From Pantoea sp. CCBC3-3-1 (GTDB lineage Bacteria > Pseudomonadota > Gammaproteobacteria > Enterobacterales > Enterobacteriaceae), in the NCBI RefSeq assembly GCF_007981265.1, contig NZ_CP034363.1, positions 4,092,001 to 4,156,000 of the forward strand: a stretch of 64,000 nt of DNA. Reading direction: 5' to 3'. The notes beneath the pieces were generated by a model. It was not told the origin of the DNA. It did no database searches and saw only the letters and a program-made list of their open reading frames with translations. Positions 1,992 through 37,417 of this stretch are shown here, one piece after another. Made by a program: the position numbers and the translations under genes. Numbering within the stretch: position 1 is the first letter of the stretch; each line of letters starts with the position of its first letter.

Positions 1992-4787
1992 ATGGATATC
2001 AGAGTTCAGCATTTTGTCGCCGTACAGCTTAATATACGCCGTCCGGAAGTTCTCTCACGCTATGCCGAACGTGACACCACTCGCAGGGAGCATACCGCGC
2101 AGATAAAGGAGTATTACGGCTATCATGAATTTGGCGATTTTCCGTGGTCTTTCCGCCTGAAACGCCTGCTGTACACCCGCGCATGGCTCAGTAATTAACG
2201 CCCCGGTCTGATGTTTGATTTTGCCACCGCGTGGCTGCTTCAGAATAAGATTCTGTTGCCTGGAGCAACCACACTTGTACGTCTCGTCAGTGAAATACGC
2301 GAAAGGGCAAATCAGCGGCTCTGGAAAAAGCTGGCCGCGCTGCCTGACAGTTGGCAGACCGCTCGCGTCACGGAGCTACTGGAAATTCCTGAGGGGCAGC
2401 GCATTTCGCCACTGGAGCAATTGAAAAAGGGGCCGGTCACCGTCAGCGGTCCGGCGTTTACTGAAGCGCTGGATCGGTATACCCGACTGCGAAACCTTGA
2501 GTTTTCCCGACTGAACTTTACCGGCCTGCCCGCCATACAGTTGCGCAATCTGGCCCGCTATGCGGGCATGGCGTCGGTAAAATACATCGCACGTATGCCA
2601 CAGGAGAGAAAGCTGGCCGTACTCACCGCATTCGTTAAAGCACAGGAGACTGCGGCACTGGATGAAGCCGTTGATGTGCTCGATATGCTGATACTGGATA
2701 TCACCCGTGCGGCGAAGAATACGGGGCAGAAAAAACGTCTCAGGACTCTAAAAGATCTTGACCGGGCAGCGCTGCTGCTGGCACGCGCATGTTCATTGTT
2801 GCTGGATGATCAGGCTGATGAAGCGGAACTGAGGCAGGTCATATTCAGTAGCATATCGAAAAGCAGACTGGCAGAATCCGTCAGTAAAGTTAATGAGCTG
2901 GCGCGGCCTCAGAACAACAATTTTCATGACGAAATGGTGGAACAGTATGGTCGTGTGAAACGTTTTCTGCCGGCGGTATTGCGTGACCTGCATTTCCACG
3001 CTGCGCCAGCCGGAGAACATATGCTGGCCGCGATTCATTATCTGACCGAACTAAACGGCTCGAAAAAACGCATCCTTGATGATGCTCCTGAACATATTAT
3101 TACCGGTCCCTGGAAACGCCTGGTGTACGATGCGGAAGGCCGGATACAACGTGCTGGTTACTCGCTTTGTCTGCTGGAGCGCCTTCAGGATGCATTGCGA
3201 CGCCGGGACATCTGGCTGAAAAACAGCGATCGCTGGGGAGATCCCCGCGAGAAGTTGTTGCAGGGGGAAGAATGGCAGGCTCAGCGGGTCCCCGTCTGCC
3301 GGGCACTAGGGCATCCCACCGATGGACATAAAGGCGTACAACAGTTAGCGGTCCAACTGGATGAAACCTGGAGAGCAGTTGCATCCCGCTTTAAAGGAAA
3401 TGCGGAAGTCCATATCTGCAATGACGGTAAATATCCTTCCCTGACTATCAGCAGCCTGGAGAAACTGGAGGAGCCACCGTCGTTGCTTCGTCTAAACAAT
3501 CGAGTCAGACAACTGCTCCCACCGGTAGATTTGACGGAGCTGTTGCTTGAGATAGATGCCAGAACGGGATTTACACGTGAGTTTACGCATGTCAGTGAAT
3601 CCGGGGCTCGAGCACAGGATCTACACATTAGCCTGTGCGCGGTACTGATGGCTGAAGCCTGCAATATCGGACTGGAACCGCTGATAAAGCACAATATACC
3701 GGCACTGACGCGCCACCGACTCAGTTGGGTGAAACAGAATTACCTCCGGGCAGAAACGCTGGTCAGTGCCAATGCCCGCTTGGTTGATTTTCAGTCCACA
3801 TTGGAGCTTGCTGGCCGCTGGGGTGGCGGCGAGGTGGCTTCAGCTGACGGCATGCGCTTTGTCACGCCAGTGAAAACAGTCAATTCCGGGCCGAACAGAA
3901 AATATTTTGGTTCTGGGCGTGGCATCACCTGGTACAACTTCGTCTCTGATCAGTACTCTGGATTCCACGGCATCGTTGTCCCCGGCACATTACGGGACTC
4001 CATTTTTGTGCTTGAAGGTCTTCTTGAACAGCAGACAGGGCTGGATCCGGTTGAGATCATGACAGACACAGCCGGTACCAGTGACATTATCTTTGGCCTG
4101 TTTTGGCTACTTGGGTATCAGTTTTCCCCTCGTCTGGCTGATGCCGGTGAAGCCGTATTCTGGCGAGTGGATAAATCGGCAAATTACGGAGCACTTGATG
4201 AGTTGGCCCGTGGGTGTGCAGATCTGTCTAAGGCAGAAAATCAGTGGGATGAGATGATGCGAACGGCGGGTTCGCTGAAGCTGGGTACCATTCATGCTTC
4301 AGAACTCATTCGCTCACTACTGAAAAGCTCACGGCCGTCAGCGCTGGCTCAGGCTATCATGGAGGTGGGGCGTGTAAACAAGACGCTGTATCTTCTTAAT
4401 TATATTGATGATGAAGATTATCGTCGTCGGATCCTGATGCAACTAAATCGGGGAGAGAGCCGCCATGCAGTGGCGCGTGCAATTTGTTACGGACAGCGCG
4501 GTGAGATCAGAAAACGATACCGTGAGGGGCAGGAAGATCAACTCGGGGCACTGGGGCTGGTCACTAACGCAGTGGTACTATGGAACACGCTTTATATGCA
4601 GGAAGCACTGAGCTGGATGTGCAGTCATGGAGAAGAAACCAGGGATGAGGATATCGCCCGTTTATCCCCACTGATGCACGGGCATATCAATATGCTGGGG
4701 CATTATACGTTCACGCTATCCGATGATATTTTAAACGGAGATTTGAGAGAATTAAATTTCAATTTAAACAATGAATTATCTCCTTAA
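1992..4787 (+). pseudogene. tnpA: Tn3-family transposase, truncated and with an in-frame stop
   Basis: A DDE transposase of the Tn3 family that would cut and join transposon ends. The family pattern reads through ERD-TRREH, LYTRAWLSN, then from 2211 the central and catalytic parts (ADGMRF, MTDTAGTSD and the final E region GQRGEIRKRYREGQ, then LGLVTNAVVLWNT). A TAA at 2196-2198 interrupts the frame where relatives read WLSNERP, so a single GAA-to-TAA change split it into 68- and 858-residue parts. The N-terminal 60 or so residues usual for the roughly 1,000-residue family are missing and replaced by the SDR fragment. Probably inactive; an internal start at 2211 would lack the N-terminal DNA-binding part. 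Confidence 0.85.
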
Positions 4788-4820
4788 CGTACGTTTTAGT
4801 TCCATTGGTCCTCAAACCCC
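4783..4820 (-). repeat. 38-bp terminal inverted repeat of a Tn3-family transposon
   Basis: Read on the minus strand it begins GGGGTTTGAGGACC and ends ACGTTAAG, with the internal GGAAC-AAAAC core of Tn3 ends. It overlaps the last codon of the transposase gene, the normal arrangement in this family. No matching left end was found in the window, so only one end of the transposon is left. Confidence 0.85.
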
Positions 4821-4954
4821 GATAACAACTTAATATCCCGTGGTTGTGTGCTTAGTTAGATACTTTTCGGCTCCCCCTAATAACTTGAGTAGGGTTTCGG
4901 ATAAGATTAAAAGAGTTTAAAAAAAAGCAAATCTGACAAAGTGAAGTCCTGCCA

Positions 4955-5836
4955 TTATTTAGTCTTATTATATACTCTGGCTATATAATGCCCCCTGCCA
5001 TCACCATGCCCTAAATCCATTGAAGCAAGAGCCTCAGCTTCTTTCTGGCTGAAACCATTATTCTTATGGAGTTTAAGCACATCCTGAGTGTACGCATATC
5101 TGAGACTATGAGGAGCAAACTCTCCAACCAACCCGGCATCCCGGACGATATTCCTGTATCGCTCGATTGCCAGATGAATAGAAGGTTTATCGATAAGTTT
5201 TCCGTTGTTCTCAGCAGAATAAGTTATTGCTCTGTTGATGGCTTCAATAGTTTCAGTTCGGTTTATTATCGTGGTATCTCTCGGTCGCCCTCCTTTAGTA
5301 CCAAAAACAACGCGAACTTTCTCATCTCCATTCTGCAGTGCTTTTTTCCATGTCTGAAGTGATTTTACAGACTGTATAGTTTCTTCAGTTCTCAAACCTA
5401 AAAGGCGTGAAAGTTTCATTGCGCAGGCGACGCCTTCATCCTTTTCACTAACAGATGCAAAAACCTGCTTGAAATAGTCATCAGTTATTGCAACCTTAGT
5501 TCCGTCACGGCTGGTTCCAGAAATATTCAAAGCATCATTGTTCAGTTTCGGATGAGTTGGATCAGCCATGAAGGTTTTACCCGACACACGTAGTATTGCG
5601 CGTATCGCCGCCATCTCATTTTGTAGTGTACGCTTGGAAATATTTTCAGCAAGGCGACTTCGAATGTAAGTTTCTATGTGGTTAGTCTTTATGTTTTTAA
5701 TGTCCCGAATTTGAATGTTAAGACTGATCATTCGTTCTGCAAATCGATCAGCAATTTTAGTACGGTCAGATACGGTTTTAAAACTTCCCCCCGCCTGGCG
5801 GGCAAGTGTTTTTAAGTTTTTATTCAGTTTTGCCAC
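4955..5836 (-). CDS. Tyrosine recombinase (integrase-domain protein)
   Basis: A 293-residue site-specific recombinase of the Integrase_1 type often carried by plasmids and ICEs. The catalytic set is visible: Arg in LLGLRTEET, a basic KGGRPR segment, PHSLRYAY as the H-x-x-R box, LGHGDGRGHY for the second His and VY close to the C terminus for the nucleophile. I chose the GTG at 5836 (protein VAKLNKNLK) because GGAGAG sits at the right distance and family members begin at this point; the longer frame runs into the 46-bp palindrome. It is probably not the main ICE integrase, which should lie next to the intact tRNA-Phe. Its leader carries the STAXI array. Confidence 0.75.
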   Translation of the reverse strand: MAKLNKNLKTLARQAGGSFKTVSDRTKIADRFAERMISLNIQIRDIKNIKTNHIETYIRSRLAENISKRTLQNEMAAIRAILRVSGKTFMADPTHPKLNNDALNISGTSRDGTKVAITDDYFKQVFASVSEKDEGVACAMKLSRLLGLRTEETIQSVKSLQTWKKALQNGDEKVRVVFGTKGGRPRDTTIINRTETIEAINRAITYSAENNGKLIDKPSIHLAIERYRNIVRDAGLVGEFAPHSLRYAYTQDVLKLHKNNGFSQKEAEALASMDLGHGDGRGHYIARVYNKTK

Positions 5837-5857
5837 AAACGACTCTCCAAATAATGA

Positions 5858-5903
5858 GGTGACAGAGCTTTTCCGTCTGTGTGAACGGAAAAGCTCTGTC
5901 ACC
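5858..5903. repeat. 46-bp palindrome upstream of the recombinase start
   Basis: Two perfect 19-base arms (ggtgacagagcttttccgt and its complement) flank an 8-base loop. It lies 22 bases before the recombinase GTG. There is no T-tract on either side, so it is not a simple terminator. A binding or crossover site for the recombinase, or an mRNA hairpin hiding the ribosome site, are both possible. Confidence 0.7.
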
Positions 5904-6129
5904 GGCTGCACAACAATAGCAGACGATAAAATTTCACCCCAACGGCACGGTTCATTTTGCGCTTCCTGCGTCTCGGCAGACATCTGTGCATCGGGGCGGC
6001 GAAATGTTGAGTTATTGCGAGGCTCCCCAGGTCTCTGACCTGTTCGCGACTTTCGCCGGGCTGAAATGAATCAGTCTGCCTCCACACACCAGTTGTCTGG
6101 TGTCGCCATCGATGTCGTGCCAATTTCTC

Positions 6130-6559
6130 CTTATTAAGTGGTGTTCAAACTTCTAAAAAACGAATGAACGTTAGGTTGAAAGTTAATCAGTTTTGAGATG
6201 AAAAACGTATTCAGGACGTCAGAAACCCTTTAATACGTGTTAGTCAGTTGGTAAACATGTCGTTGAAGGTACAGTGCGTAAGCGCTGACCGTTATGCGCT
6301 GCGCGCGTCACTTGGTAGTGTCTTCGCCACTTCACAAGTGACGCCGCGCAGCTTCGTGCTCCTAATGCAACGCCGTAAGCGGCCAAATGTACCAAATGGC
6401 CTTATCCGTCGATGCAAAAGTCGTACGAAACTCAGGGCGTATCCCTGAAAAGAATCATAACGTAGTGAAAGATCAGAGCCTGATTCAGCTCCTTTGTAGA
6501 CAATTCATCATCATAAAGACGTGAATCATTGATGTGATAGCCGGTCATTCTCAACCGGT
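6130..6559 (-). other. Structured leader between STAXI array and recombinase
   Basis: No convincing gene is present. The stretch is rich in inverted repeats. The main one spans 6298-6352 (arms of 16 and 17 bases with one bulged base, 22-base loop). Smaller ones are a GGCCA/TGGCC pair near 6382-6402 and TCAGGG/CCCTGA near 6433-6449. Together with the array it could be a long untranslated leader, about 900 bases from the predicted promoter to the recombinase start. Open frames here lack a well-spaced ribosome site. Confidence 0.4.
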
Positions 6560-6755
6560 AACCTTGACCAGATTATGGTTCCCGTTTTCAAAGGTTAAAC
6601 GGGTTTCCCGCCCAAAGGCGTCCCTCTCAGGTTTTCGGGACTTTAGCTGGCAGTCACCCGAAGGCGCTTCTCTCAGACCGCTGAAGCATTAGCTGGTAAC
6701 CGCCCGAAGGCACCCCTCTCAGGTTACTGGGGTTTTGGATGGTCGCCGTAGCGAC
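6560..6755 (-). ncRNA. STAXI RNA array, copy 1 (three units plus a divergent fourth)
   Basis: Read on the minus strand there are three tandem units of about 46 bases. Each has a 5-bp helix (ACCCC/GGGGT, GCTTC/GAAGC, GTCCC/GGGAC), a conserved CTGAGAG inside it, a small hairpin closed by a TTCG or TTTG loop, and a second helix that crosses the first (GTAACC/GGTTAC, GCGGTC/GACTGC; weak in unit 3). This is the repeated simple pseudoknot with UNCG loops described as the STAXI motif. That motif is named for its company with SSB, topoisomerase, antirestriction and XerDC-integrase genes, and its function is unknown. A fourth, divergent pseudoknot follows: CCCGTTT/AAACGGG, hairpin ACCA/TGGT, AACCTT/AAGGTT. 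Confidence 0.8.
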
Positions 6756-6770
6756 TTCTAAGCAAAGTGG

Positions 6771-6799
6771 ATATTAGCAATGGCTCAAATAACCGTCAA
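6771..6799 (-). promoter_or_regulatory. Promoter for STAXI copy 1
   Basis: On the minus strand TTGACG and TAATAT are separated by 17 bases, a near-consensus sigma-70 promoter. The start point would fall near 6764, just before the GTCGC-TACG-GCGAC hairpin that opens the array. This supports transcription of the array in the direction of the recombinase gene. Confidence 0.6.
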
Positions 6800-6809
6800 C
6801 TATCTTGCG

Positions 6810-7508
6810 TTATTTATAATCAGGATCTGGATAAATCACTATAGCAATTGACTTAAGCTCCTCAACATCATTAGCGAGGAAAGGTATAGATGAATTTTTT
6901 TGAATTTTTTCGATTATTCTGTCTCCCAGAATCATGGGTACGTACTGATGACCACGGAAAATTTCATCAGGCTTACCTATCAACACTTCCCCTGCAAATT
7001 CATGGCAATCAGAATAAAAACCAGCAATAGTACTCAGATAAGAAATATCGATTAAATGACCTGTATCTGTTGTGTACCACGCATGGAGATTTAAAGCTGT
7101 TCTGTCCAGAAAATCCTCATGGTGAAACCCCTTCCTGCACCATCTTTCAAACTCATCATATGATGGGTCATAAATACTTTCATCACCCTTCCATATTTGG
7201 CCAACAGTTGTCCATATTCTGCAACCTAAAGCATCTTCAAAATAAGGTTTTAAAAAATGACACCATTTAATACATTGTCTTGCGGAAGATTTGAAATCTC
7301 GCAAGCCCGTTGCAAAGCACACATACTCCATCATATTTTCATAATTAAGCGGCCTTTCATTTATATCTTTAATCGTGCCTTCGTTAAATCCTAATTTTTT
7401 TGTAAATTTTAAAGCATGCTCAAAGTTAGCAACATAGCCCAGTGTGTCACTATATCCTAAAGTACGATATCCTTTCTTTTTTCTGAGAGATGATAAAAGA
7501 TTAAACAT
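6810..7508 (-). CDS. Unknown protein, AT-rich accessory gene
   Basis: A 232-residue protein that I do not recognise. It is rich in aromatic residues and cysteine (for example CIKWCHFLKPYF near residue 80 and FERWCRKGFHHEDF near 123), has no signal peptide and no membrane segment, and is likely cytoplasmic. The base composition is clearly more AT-rich than the ICE core. It sits between the lipoprotein gene upstream and the STAXI promoter downstream, with 54 bases to the lipoprotein stop. A role as cargo (defence, effector or immunity) is only a guess from position. Confidence 0.6.
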   Translation of the reverse strand: MFNLLSSLRKKKGYRTLGYSDTLGYVANFEHALKFTKKLGFNEGTIKDINERPLNYENMMEYVCFATGLRDFKSSARQCIKWCHFLKPYFEDALGCRIWTTVGQIWKGDESIYDPSYDEFERWCRKGFHHEDFLDRTALNLHAWYTTDTGHLIDISYLSTIAGFYSDCHEFAGEVLIGKPDEIFRGHQYVPMILGDRIIEKIQKNSSIPFLANDVEELKSIAIVIYPDPDYK

Positions 7509-7562
7509 AGCCCCCCATTTAATATTGAGTGTGGACGCACCTTATCCACACTCATATAAATA

Positions 7563-8108
7563 TTATTTTCCTTCAGCAGAGCTTTTAATATTTTTTATTA
7601 AATCCTGCAATCCGGAACTCGCCAGTCTTTTTTGAGATGATGAGCTATATGTTATAAAAAGACGGCTCCCTGAACCATTTTTTTCGAGCTCAATAGTAAG
7701 GTGATCATCATAATCACCCCAGTCGGAGCCCATTTTATAATAGCTGCCGGGCATTGAATCCCATTCCTGATGGCTGTCAGTTATTGCGCCAGCTACCCAC
7801 TCGCCGTCGTTATTCCTTTCTCTGATCGACCTTAACTCATCGTTGGATAAAAATTTATACTTTCGCTTTATTCTGGCCGCTGCCGTATCAACATCAACAG
7901 GGATCTTGAAGCTTTTTGAAGTGGATTCTTTTTTTTCTGACTGACGAGGAGTCATGACCTTAGAAGAATTATCTGAGCCATCCCCTCTTAAAGAGCCCAT
8001 TAACCCTGATGCATCATCACTAATTTTTTTATTTGTTTCTGCTATCTCACTCATACTACAGGCAGTCAGTAAAACAGGTAGTATTAAGGCTAGTCCGACA
8101 CTCCTCAT
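7563..8108 (-). CDS. Lipoprotein, paralogue of the one beside topB
   Basis: A secreted lipoprotein with a short signal ending in LLTAC, so the mature N terminus is the acylated cysteine. I start it at 8108 (MRSVGLALIL) because this gives a normal signal peptide; the frame extends further upstream without one. The second half (PVDVDTAAAR, MPGSYYKMGSDW, EKNGSGSRL, then SSSSQKRLA) repeats the protein at 39741-40295 almost block by block. The middle Ser/Lys linker differs. It has no known function. This copy is more AT-rich, so the two diverged in different hosts rather than by a recent duplication. Confidence 0.7.
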   Translation of the reverse strand: MRSVGLALILPVLLTACSMSEIAETNKKISDDASGLMGSLRGDGSDNSSKVMTPRQSEKKESTSKSFKIPVDVDTAAARIKRKYKFLSNDELRSIRERNNDGEWVAGAITDSHQEWDSMPGSYYKMGSDWGDYDDHLTIELEKNGSGSRLFITYSSSSQKRLASSGLQDLIKNIKSSAEGK

Positions 8109-36529: not shown

Positions 36530-36589
36530 AATCATTTCTCCTGTAAAGAATAAAGAAACACCCCGCGAACGGGGTGTGTCAGGTGGGCA

Positions 36590-37060
36590 TCAGAATGAGT
36601 TTTCTGCGTAGCTTTGTTGTGCGGCAGAGCCATTCTGCGGCGGCACGGAGTCAGATTTTTCAGTCTTGTAGACCATGTCCTGGCCTATTTTGATCCAGTC
36701 CACCTTTATCAGGCGGGCTTTCAGACTGACACGCTGTTCGCCGGCATGCTCGCCCTTGTTCAGCGTAAATATGTCCGTGGACGGATTACTCAGGTTAAAG
36801 CCCAGCAGGACTTTTTTGTCTTCATCGACGGCCTTCTGGCAGCGGGCAATAAGGCTTGTAGCCTCTTTACCTGCGACAGAAATGTCAAAACGGACGTAGG
36901 CCGGATTATCAGTCGGACCACTCAGTGCATTGATGACGCAGCTGAGGAACGAGCCATTCTGATGGTTAACCTGGCGGATGTTGCTGAGATACCCGATGCC
37001 TTTGATAGTCAGGTTGAAGTACTCAGATTTTGCAGATGCAGAAGTATTGTTTGCAGACAT
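36590..37060 (-). CDS. DUF3577 / STY4534-family ICE replication protein
   Basis: A 156-residue protein of the STY4534 (DUF3577) family, a marker of SPI-7-type elements and linked with their replication. Visible segments are YFNLTIKGIGYLSNIRQV near the start, GSFLSCVINALSGPTDNPAYVRFD, and RVSLKARLIKVDWIKIG near 115. It has an OB-fold-like pattern that suggests DNA binding. It precedes ssb by 60 bases and has GGAGAAAACATC before its ATG. The STAXI array and a promoter lie upstream. Confidence 0.85.
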   Translation of the reverse strand: MSANNTSASAKSEYFNLTIKGIGYLSNIRQVNHQNGSFLSCVINALSGPTDNPAYVRFDISVAGKEATSLIARCQKAVDEDKKVLLGFNLSNPSTDIFTLNKGEHAGEQRVSLKARLIKVDWIKIGQDMVYKTEKSDSVPPQNGSAAQQSYAENSF

Positions 37061-37179
37061 GATGTTTTCTCCATGGAGGTAAAAAAAGGTACAACGGAGA
37101 AACCATCTGCCCTGACGGGAGTGGTTTCCCGTCGGGGGTCAGGATTAGCTGAATCCTGAGAGTCTGATATGTTGAAAGG

Positions 37180-37351
37180 ACCTCAGTCACTGTGCAGTGA
37201 CATTCGTTTCCAGAGGTTAAACGAATTTACCACCCGCAGGTATCCTCTCTCAGGCTGCGAGGATTTTCCGGTCACCCGAAGGTGTTTCTCTCAGACCGGT
37301 GAAACGTTAGATGGCAGTCACCCGAAGGCGTTTCTCTCAGACTGCTGAAAC
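37180..37351 (-). ncRNA. STAXI RNA array, copy 2 (three units plus a divergent fourth)
   Basis: Same layout as copy 1 at 6.6 kb. Units on the minus strand have first helices GTTTC/GAAAC, GTTTC/GAAAC and ATCCT/AGGAT around a conserved CTGAGAG, UUCG, UUCG and UGCG loops, and crossing helices GCAGTC/GACTGC and CCGGTC/GACCGG (weak in unit 3). A fourth pseudoknot follows: ATTCGTTT/AAACGAAT, hairpin GTCACTG/CAGTGAC, ACCTC/GAGGT. It stands between topB and DUF3577-ssb, the gene company for which STAXI is named. Confidence 0.8.
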
Positions 37352-37388
37352 TTTGGCTGGCTGTAAAAAACAGCGGTAAGCACTGTTG

Positions 37389-37417
37389 ATTTTTAAACCA
37401 AACAAGCCGTGTGTCAA
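37389..37417 (-). promoter_or_regulatory. Possible promoter of the STAXI-DUF3577-ssb unit
   Basis: TTGACA stands 17 bases before AAAAAT on the minus strand, so a perfect -35 with a weak -10. A hairpin (ACAG / CTGT near 37370-37386) with six T comes directly after the expected start. This could act as an early attenuator before the array. Confidence 0.45.

Follow-up and report, generated by a model that had tools for sequence, protein, structure and literature searches.

The window analysed here is the 64,000-nucleotide stretch of contig NZ_CP034363.1 of Pantoea sp. CCBC3-3-1 (positions 4,092,001 to 4,156,000), which looks like an integrative conjugative element (ICE) by its TraG_N, TraC and TraD/TraG-like genes, topB, ssb and DUF3577. 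It carries two minus-strand copies of STAXI, a pseudoknot repeated two or three times that was described with unknown function and with proposals for both single-stranded DNA (ssDNA) and RNA roles (Weinberg et al. 2010, PMC2864571). With evenly balanced confidence, we favour the explanation that STAXI is a promoter-proximal, cis-acting riboregulatory leader RNA of early operons on mobile elements. By computation, this reading is supported by the family assignment, the repeated units, a terminal unit (T), promoter-like sites, a bias toward RNA pairing and, in a second class of arrays, a sequestered Shine-Dalgarno sequence. Our arrays are like published STAXI in score, repeated pseudoknots, UUCG loops and neighbours (ssb, topB, integrase and antirestriction genes); unlike the accessible part of its published text (PMC2864571), we add a promoter-like site at a fixed distance, a terminal unit and a Shine-Dalgarno switch in one class, which are the new elements of this work. 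In the portions of the STAXI and EFASI literature available to us, no promoter, terminal unit or switch is described, and the STAXI portions assign the motif no role.

Copy 1 was matched by the Rfam STAXI model (RF01728) on the minus strand at 6715-6557 (E 1.9e-20 in the 64-kb window), above the cut-off of 40.5 bits and at the very place where a preliminary description made from the bare sequence had named STAXI. The array, at 6755-6560, opens with a cap hairpin, continues with three UGAGA units and ends in a fourth, divergent one, with S1 and S2 denoting the two crossing helices of a unit:
6742-6755, minus strand: 5' cap hairpin GTCGCTACGGCGAC, at the predicted transcript start
6696-6733, minus strand: regular pseudoknot unit 1, S1 ACCCC/GGGGT crossing GTAACC/GGTTAC; sequence identical in locus L006
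6650-6687, minus strand: regular pseudoknot unit 2, GCTTC/GAAGC crossing GCGGTC/GACTGC with one G-U pair; parsed as L006
6603-6641, minus strand: unit 3, S1 GTCCC/GGGAC and hairpin present, crossing helix S2 degenerate
6560-6603, minus strand: terminal unit T, CCCGTTT/AAACGGG, hairpin ACCA/TGGT, crossing AACCTT/AAGGTT
6557-6715, minus strand: Rfam STAXI RF01728 match, 101 bits

Every helix quoted in the preliminary description was recovered on the minus strand. Both helices are formed by units 1, 2 and T, and S1 alone by unit 3, so the pseudoknot is repeated at least twice. The description of three similar units needs correction at unit 3, whose loop is TTTG rather than TTCG. Unit 3 also lacks a real crossing helix; of 74 anchored units, only 4, unit 3 included, form fewer than 8 of the 11 pairs. 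DNA-handling genes lie near both arrays: an integrase gene at copy 1, and topB and ssb at copy 2.

The plan of the regular unit is constant: a 5-bp S1, a 1-nt L1, a 6-bp S2, UGAGA, the S1' strand, a 10-nt UUCG-type hairpin and the S2' strand. This plan came out of a parser built without knowledge of Rfam, which gave 40 units from 17 arrays under strict rules. For the pairing counts, 74 distinct units were picked by the UGAGA (or UGUGA) and hairpin anchors, ignoring the helices. S1 and S2 pair in 768 of 814 cells (94.3%), whereas re-dealt 3' letters pair in about 597 (about 73%; 450.9 Watson-Crick and 146.2 G-U) and slides of one or two columns cut pairing to about 33-44%. The expected covariation was found, with two-sided changes at all eleven pairs. 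G-U cells outnumber A-C cells by 42 to 13, against 146 and 125 after re-dealing (binomial p 1e-4, to be read as a guide only because the units are related). This excess favours RNA of the minus strand, in line with the emphasis that the preliminary description had laid on a G-U pair stable in RNA. UGUGA replaces UGAGA in 15 of 77 units, a set chosen partly by pairing.

The divergent fourth unit is a real terminal unit with its own covariation and with the topology of the regular units. A first parser for T required perfect helices and was biased; the counts given here come from sequence-only anchors and a MAFFT alignment. The anchors yielded 58 distinct T units, 9 of 74 distinct arrays having no T anchor. 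Over 57 units (L064 was dropped), S1 of T pairs in 279 of 285 cells (re-dealt 230, best 241) and S2 in 273 of 285 (re-dealt 253, best 263), the 3' strand of S2 being searched freely in real and re-dealt sets alike. The 43 distinct L3 loops have a mean closing stem of 5.9 bp, compared with 2.3 bp when shuffled. The covariation alignment held 23 rows of equal L1 length picked from the 58 units; units with a long hairpin or a different L1 length, L006 (which repeats the window row) and L038 to L040 were left out. There, 98.1% of cells are paired and 12 of 14 pairs changed two-sidedly, which bears out the topology and covariation proposed for the 3' pseudoknot. On four of five measures the observed value was unmatched by any of 500 shuffles; the pair-type count was not above the shuffles, 381 of which reached it. 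Slid alignments pair just 26-44% of cells.

The same unit had been placed outside the published motif. At copy 1 this does not hold, as the RF01728 match reaches 6557 and covers T, the third slot of the model holding its crossing helix and hairpin; S1 of T is missing from the nested pairs that cmscan prints. It does hold for 20 of the 58 distinct T units, copy 2 included, in which the core lies 3' of the end of the Rfam match and just the first few bases fall inside it.

A model of T gave two matches in the window, that at copy 1 spanning 6607-6558 with 55.5 bits; the window row and the copy 2 row (L003) are both among its 23 training rows. Over the 5.16-Mb genome, with 150 of 2410 candidates scored, it gave seven matches, each ending a chromosomal array at its 3' side and none isolated, and missed the three plasmid arrays of the same genome. 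The model was also run on 37 other loci, a few of which duplicate training rows: 26 gave a row with E no higher than 1, 18 gave one with E below 0.01, and 11 gave none (L008, L020, L021, L037, L054, L064, L099, L102 and L104-L106). One weak row lay off the array (L055, 474-525).

To place the arrays on a transcript, sigma-70 hexamers were scored in 107 bases around each array start and compared with same-strand control windows. The score exceeded the 90th percentile of the controls in 61 of 69 arrays, against 18 of 69 on the opposite strand, and in 54 of 69 the -10 hexamer ends 9-18 nt ahead of the parsed array start. Both copies in the window have such a site:
6771-6799, minus strand: sigma-70 promoter-like site of copy 1, TTGACG-17-TAATAT with TG before the -10
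37389-37417, minus strand: promoter-like site of copy 2, TTGACA-17-AAAAAT, with topB and then a terminator-like hairpin (37467-37444) upstream of it

At copy 1, where the parser takes the first regular unit as the array start, the -10 (6776-6771) ends 15 nt ahead of the cap hairpin. An independent scan near copy 1 (4800-7600) returned nine promoter-like sites, this one included, with 5.4 expected; near copy 2 the site listed above was the only one, with 1.3 expected. Because of the nine sites at copy 1, the promoter evidence is the fixed distance across many arrays, not a single site. This mostly fixed distance suggests that STAXI marks the 5' end of an RNA made from its own predicted promoter.

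Copy 2 leads the DUF3577 gene and shows how such a leader might act:
37223-37375, minus strand: STAXI copy 2, cap and three units, 124.7 bits
37180-37226, minus strand: T of copy 2, past the Rfam match except for four bases
37114-37133, minus strand: switch segment a (GGGAAACCA in hairpin)
37096-37107, minus strand: switch segment b (GATGGTTTCTCC), complementary to a and c
37058-37072, minus strand: switch segment c, from the Shine-Dalgarno GGAG to the ATG of the DUF3577 gene
36590-37060, minus strand: DUF3577 / STY4534-family ICE replication protein, predicted OB fold
36558-36577, minus strand: terminator-like hairpin between DUF3577 and ssb, with too little room behind it for a promoter

Segments a, b and c, the last being the Shine-Dalgarno segment, recur before genes whose Shine-Dalgarno sequence and start lie within 230 nt. 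Tested leader by leader against shuffles (p<0.05), b-c pairing was better in 12 of 25 and a-b pairing in 14 of 25. When 22 ATG leaders were pooled, their own duplexes averaged -14.0 against -11.1 re-dealt, none of 200 redeals was as low (minimum -12.5), and the Shine-Dalgarno sequence was nearly closed. The led genes encode DUF3577, an antirestriction protein (PF03230, L051) and several proteins without a family, and this variety makes the switch more than the shared descent of one gene. Counted over 86 STAXI places (without the plasmid contig and two sub-threshold places), STAXI leads 24 of 28 DUF3577 matches; Rfam found no hidden STAXI before the other four. One DUF3577 leader, in L111, keeps by eye a T-like unit and the switch without regular units, and is perhaps a natural deletion.

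Copy 1 belongs to another class, in which EFASI and an integrase gene follow:
6301-6349, minus strand: conserved middle hairpin GCGTCACTTG..CAAGTGACGC lying between STAXI and EFASI, its inner loop variable; Rfam has no match at this place
5974-6123, minus strand: EFASI RNA (RF02957), with AAGGAG from 6132 directly ahead
5858-5903, minus strand: perfect 20-bp inverted repeat between EFASI and the integrase gene
4955-5836, minus strand: tyrosine integrase led by copy 1 (PF12834, PF12835), GTG start behind GGAG

Behind the 74 distinct arrays, the EFASI pattern with the middle hairpin was found in 34 and DUF3577 in 15; the remaining 25 have other led genes, are cut, or are over-called. The middle hairpin occurs in the 34 EFASI-class arrays and one other, and in none of the 15 DUF3577-class arrays. 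As the fuzzy EFASI pattern over-called, giving rows without the hairpin, EFASI calls rest on cmscan and the hairpin. Rfam text quoted in PMC12370729 places EFASI downstream of STAXI and before the integrase, as is the case here. In our data, EFASI has no promoter-like site of its own, and a third conserved hairpin links it to STAXI; an own promoter for EFASI was considered and rejected, just 1 of 39 exceeding the control 90th percentile. In 11 of 14 loci, 42-144 nt separate EFASI from the integrase start downstream of it; at copy 1 the integrase open reading frame extends upstream to an ATG at 5983. A TTG-started frame of 74 codons crosses EFASI (5899-6123), and EFASI may be partly a translated leader.

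In the favoured mechanism, a sigma-70 promoter would start the transcript a few bases ahead of the cap hairpin, at about 6764 and 37382. The RNA would fold into one to about four pseudoknots of the same topology, the array being closed by the specialised pseudoknot T. The repeated UGAGA units would be receptors for a trans-acting factor, and T would join the array to the downstream part. For DUF3577 and some other genes the output would be translational, with a and the Shine-Dalgarno segment c as alternative partners of segment b; where EFASI follows, the leader would open a STAXI-hairpin-EFASI-integrase unit. Here we infer that the promoter-like sites are active, that the array governs the switch, that a factor binds the array and that this factor is encoded by the element.

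The leading candidate for the factor is the DUF3577 protein, possibly an OB-fold protein modestly like SSB/PriB, which might, like T4 gp32, act on a pseudoknot in its own message. The likeness to SSB/PriB has modest scores, and the gene is led by one class of arrays only. The T4 gene 32 operator is a pseudoknot leader bound by an ssDNA-binding protein (PMC535899). STAXI would share with it the 5'-side leader pseudoknot, a possibly SSB-like product and a proposed translational output, and differs in having several pseudoknots and a folded rather than open ribosome-binding site. The more specific proposal that the arrays are multivalent receptors for an SSB/PriB-like DUF3577, with free ssDNA competing and thereby switching early genes on, is decidedly unlikely. 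If it were true, DUF3577 would repress its own translation and a regulon of antirestriction and other early genes, with the EFASI-integrase unit controlled otherwise; switch-on would come when the element enters or replicates, and small plasmids with an array alone would tap or titrate the signal. With a promoter-like site, T and a switch before a possibly SSB-like gene, STAXI would be a concrete, testable regulator of element and plasmid gene start.

Several observations weigh against the leader explanation. In the EFASI class there is no Shine-Dalgarno switch at the AAGGAG before EFASI (20 sequences), and the integrase Shine-Dalgarno sequence is open, with a median of 0.38 (11 loci); for copy 1, the position of a leader is supported and the mode of action is not. 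Small plasmids keep the promoter-like site, the array and EFASI without a clear led gene; the smallest has 3140 bp, with rep as its sole large annotated gene. The DUF3577 leaders are related to each other. Finally, in 5 of 12 DUF3577 loci the gap to the following gene measures 58-76 nt and holds a terminator-like hairpin (four found by scan, that of L026 by eye) and no good promoter, so that read-through seems necessary for that gene, which is ssb in the window.

This last point speaks for the strongest of the alternatives, an unlikely one, in which STAXI is a processive antitermination element, RNA-only or with a factor, and a Gram-negative counterpart of put, EAR or conAn. Its promoter-proximal pseudoknots would load on RNA polymerase and let it pass operon terminators. 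Unlike the Shine-Dalgarno switch, antitermination could serve both array classes, which sit at a fixed position behind the promoter-like site. Conjugation operons that open with an antitermination system are known in Gram-positives, and put, EAR and conAn are likewise structured RNAs at operon starts, conAn in conjugative plasmids (PMC8955417). The proposed likeness to them is one of position at the operon start. Against antitermination, the remaining 7 of 12 loci have longer gaps, as judged at the first gene junction, the one examined in each operon; few terminators were seen in the EFASI class, and the Shine-Dalgarno switch would be superfluous.

A trans-acting role, as an independent small RNA or as a decoy that binds, for example, a host defence or regulatory protein, is quite unlikely. 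Rfam gives STAXI the type 'Gene; sRNA', the array has its own promoter-like site, and promoter-array-EFASI modules occur on small plasmids. Published evidence for STAXI RNA comes from Pectobacterium RNA sequencing, where one of two candidates was labelled as antisense to a gene (PMC4710047), and from detection by reverse transcription PCR in E. coli vesicles (PMC12370729). Against a trans role, arrays of the DUF3577 class have a gene at a nearly fixed distance and a Shine-Dalgarno sequence that is sequestered and covaries, and most EFASI-class arrays have no terminator-like site directly behind T.

We regard as very improbable that STAXI works as folded ssDNA in transfer or replication, for example as a priming or recombination site. 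An oriT-like core, which we take to be an IncI-like oriT, lies 5' of STAXI on the same strand in five of ten small named plasmids (L036, L037, L039, L040 and L102), so that STAXI would enter in its sense orientation on the incoming strand; neighbouring genes also handle ssDNA. These five plasmids may, however, share one ancestral block, and the fixed distance to a promoter-like site, the 42 G-U against 13 A-C cells and the UUCG loops argue for RNA, as does the 1-nt loop across a 6-bp helix, which suits the A form of RNA. An ssDNA priming site or ssDNA promoter was favoured first because of the oriT-like cores and was dropped once the promoter-like sites and the G-U excess had been found.

A type III antitoxin-like repeat RNA is scarcely credible: tandem pseudoknots resemble ToxI in outline, but no ToxN-like family was found by Pfam among 30 flanking or led proteins, and the led genes vary between arrays. 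An integron-like attC role, played together with the PF12835 integrase, was suggested by the genes that often separate the integrase from STAXI. It was set aside in view of the G-U preference in the covariation of S1 and S2 and of the promoter-like site ahead of most arrays. Likewise, a topB 3' untranslated region, a label used in PMC4710047, was rejected for copy 2, which is parted from topB by a terminator-like hairpin followed by the promoter-like site.

The whole genome has ten STAXI matches, seven chromosomal and three on a plasmid contig. This contig of 25,471 bases carries three STAXI-EFASI copies about 8.5 kb apart and an RNAI match, a plasmid trimer that is either real or assembled. 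Under strict filters, 7 of 394 genomes sampled across the order carried STAXI, and in this sample all seven belong to a single family. Among 60 close relatives, 14 carry it, the genome itself included and 13 over the cut-off, and blastn found similar sequence in 682 of 5426 E. coli genomes. The sets of carrier and non-carrier genomes comprised 19 with STAXI (G024, with a single weak match, was left out) and 22 without.

At copy 1, a Tn3-family transposase gene (2211-4787) adjoins the led integrase. The direct-orientation order STAXI-EFASI-integrase-(small gene)-STAXI recurs in L099, L100, L101 and L107, and in three of these an ArdC or zincin-like gene and DUF1281 then follow.
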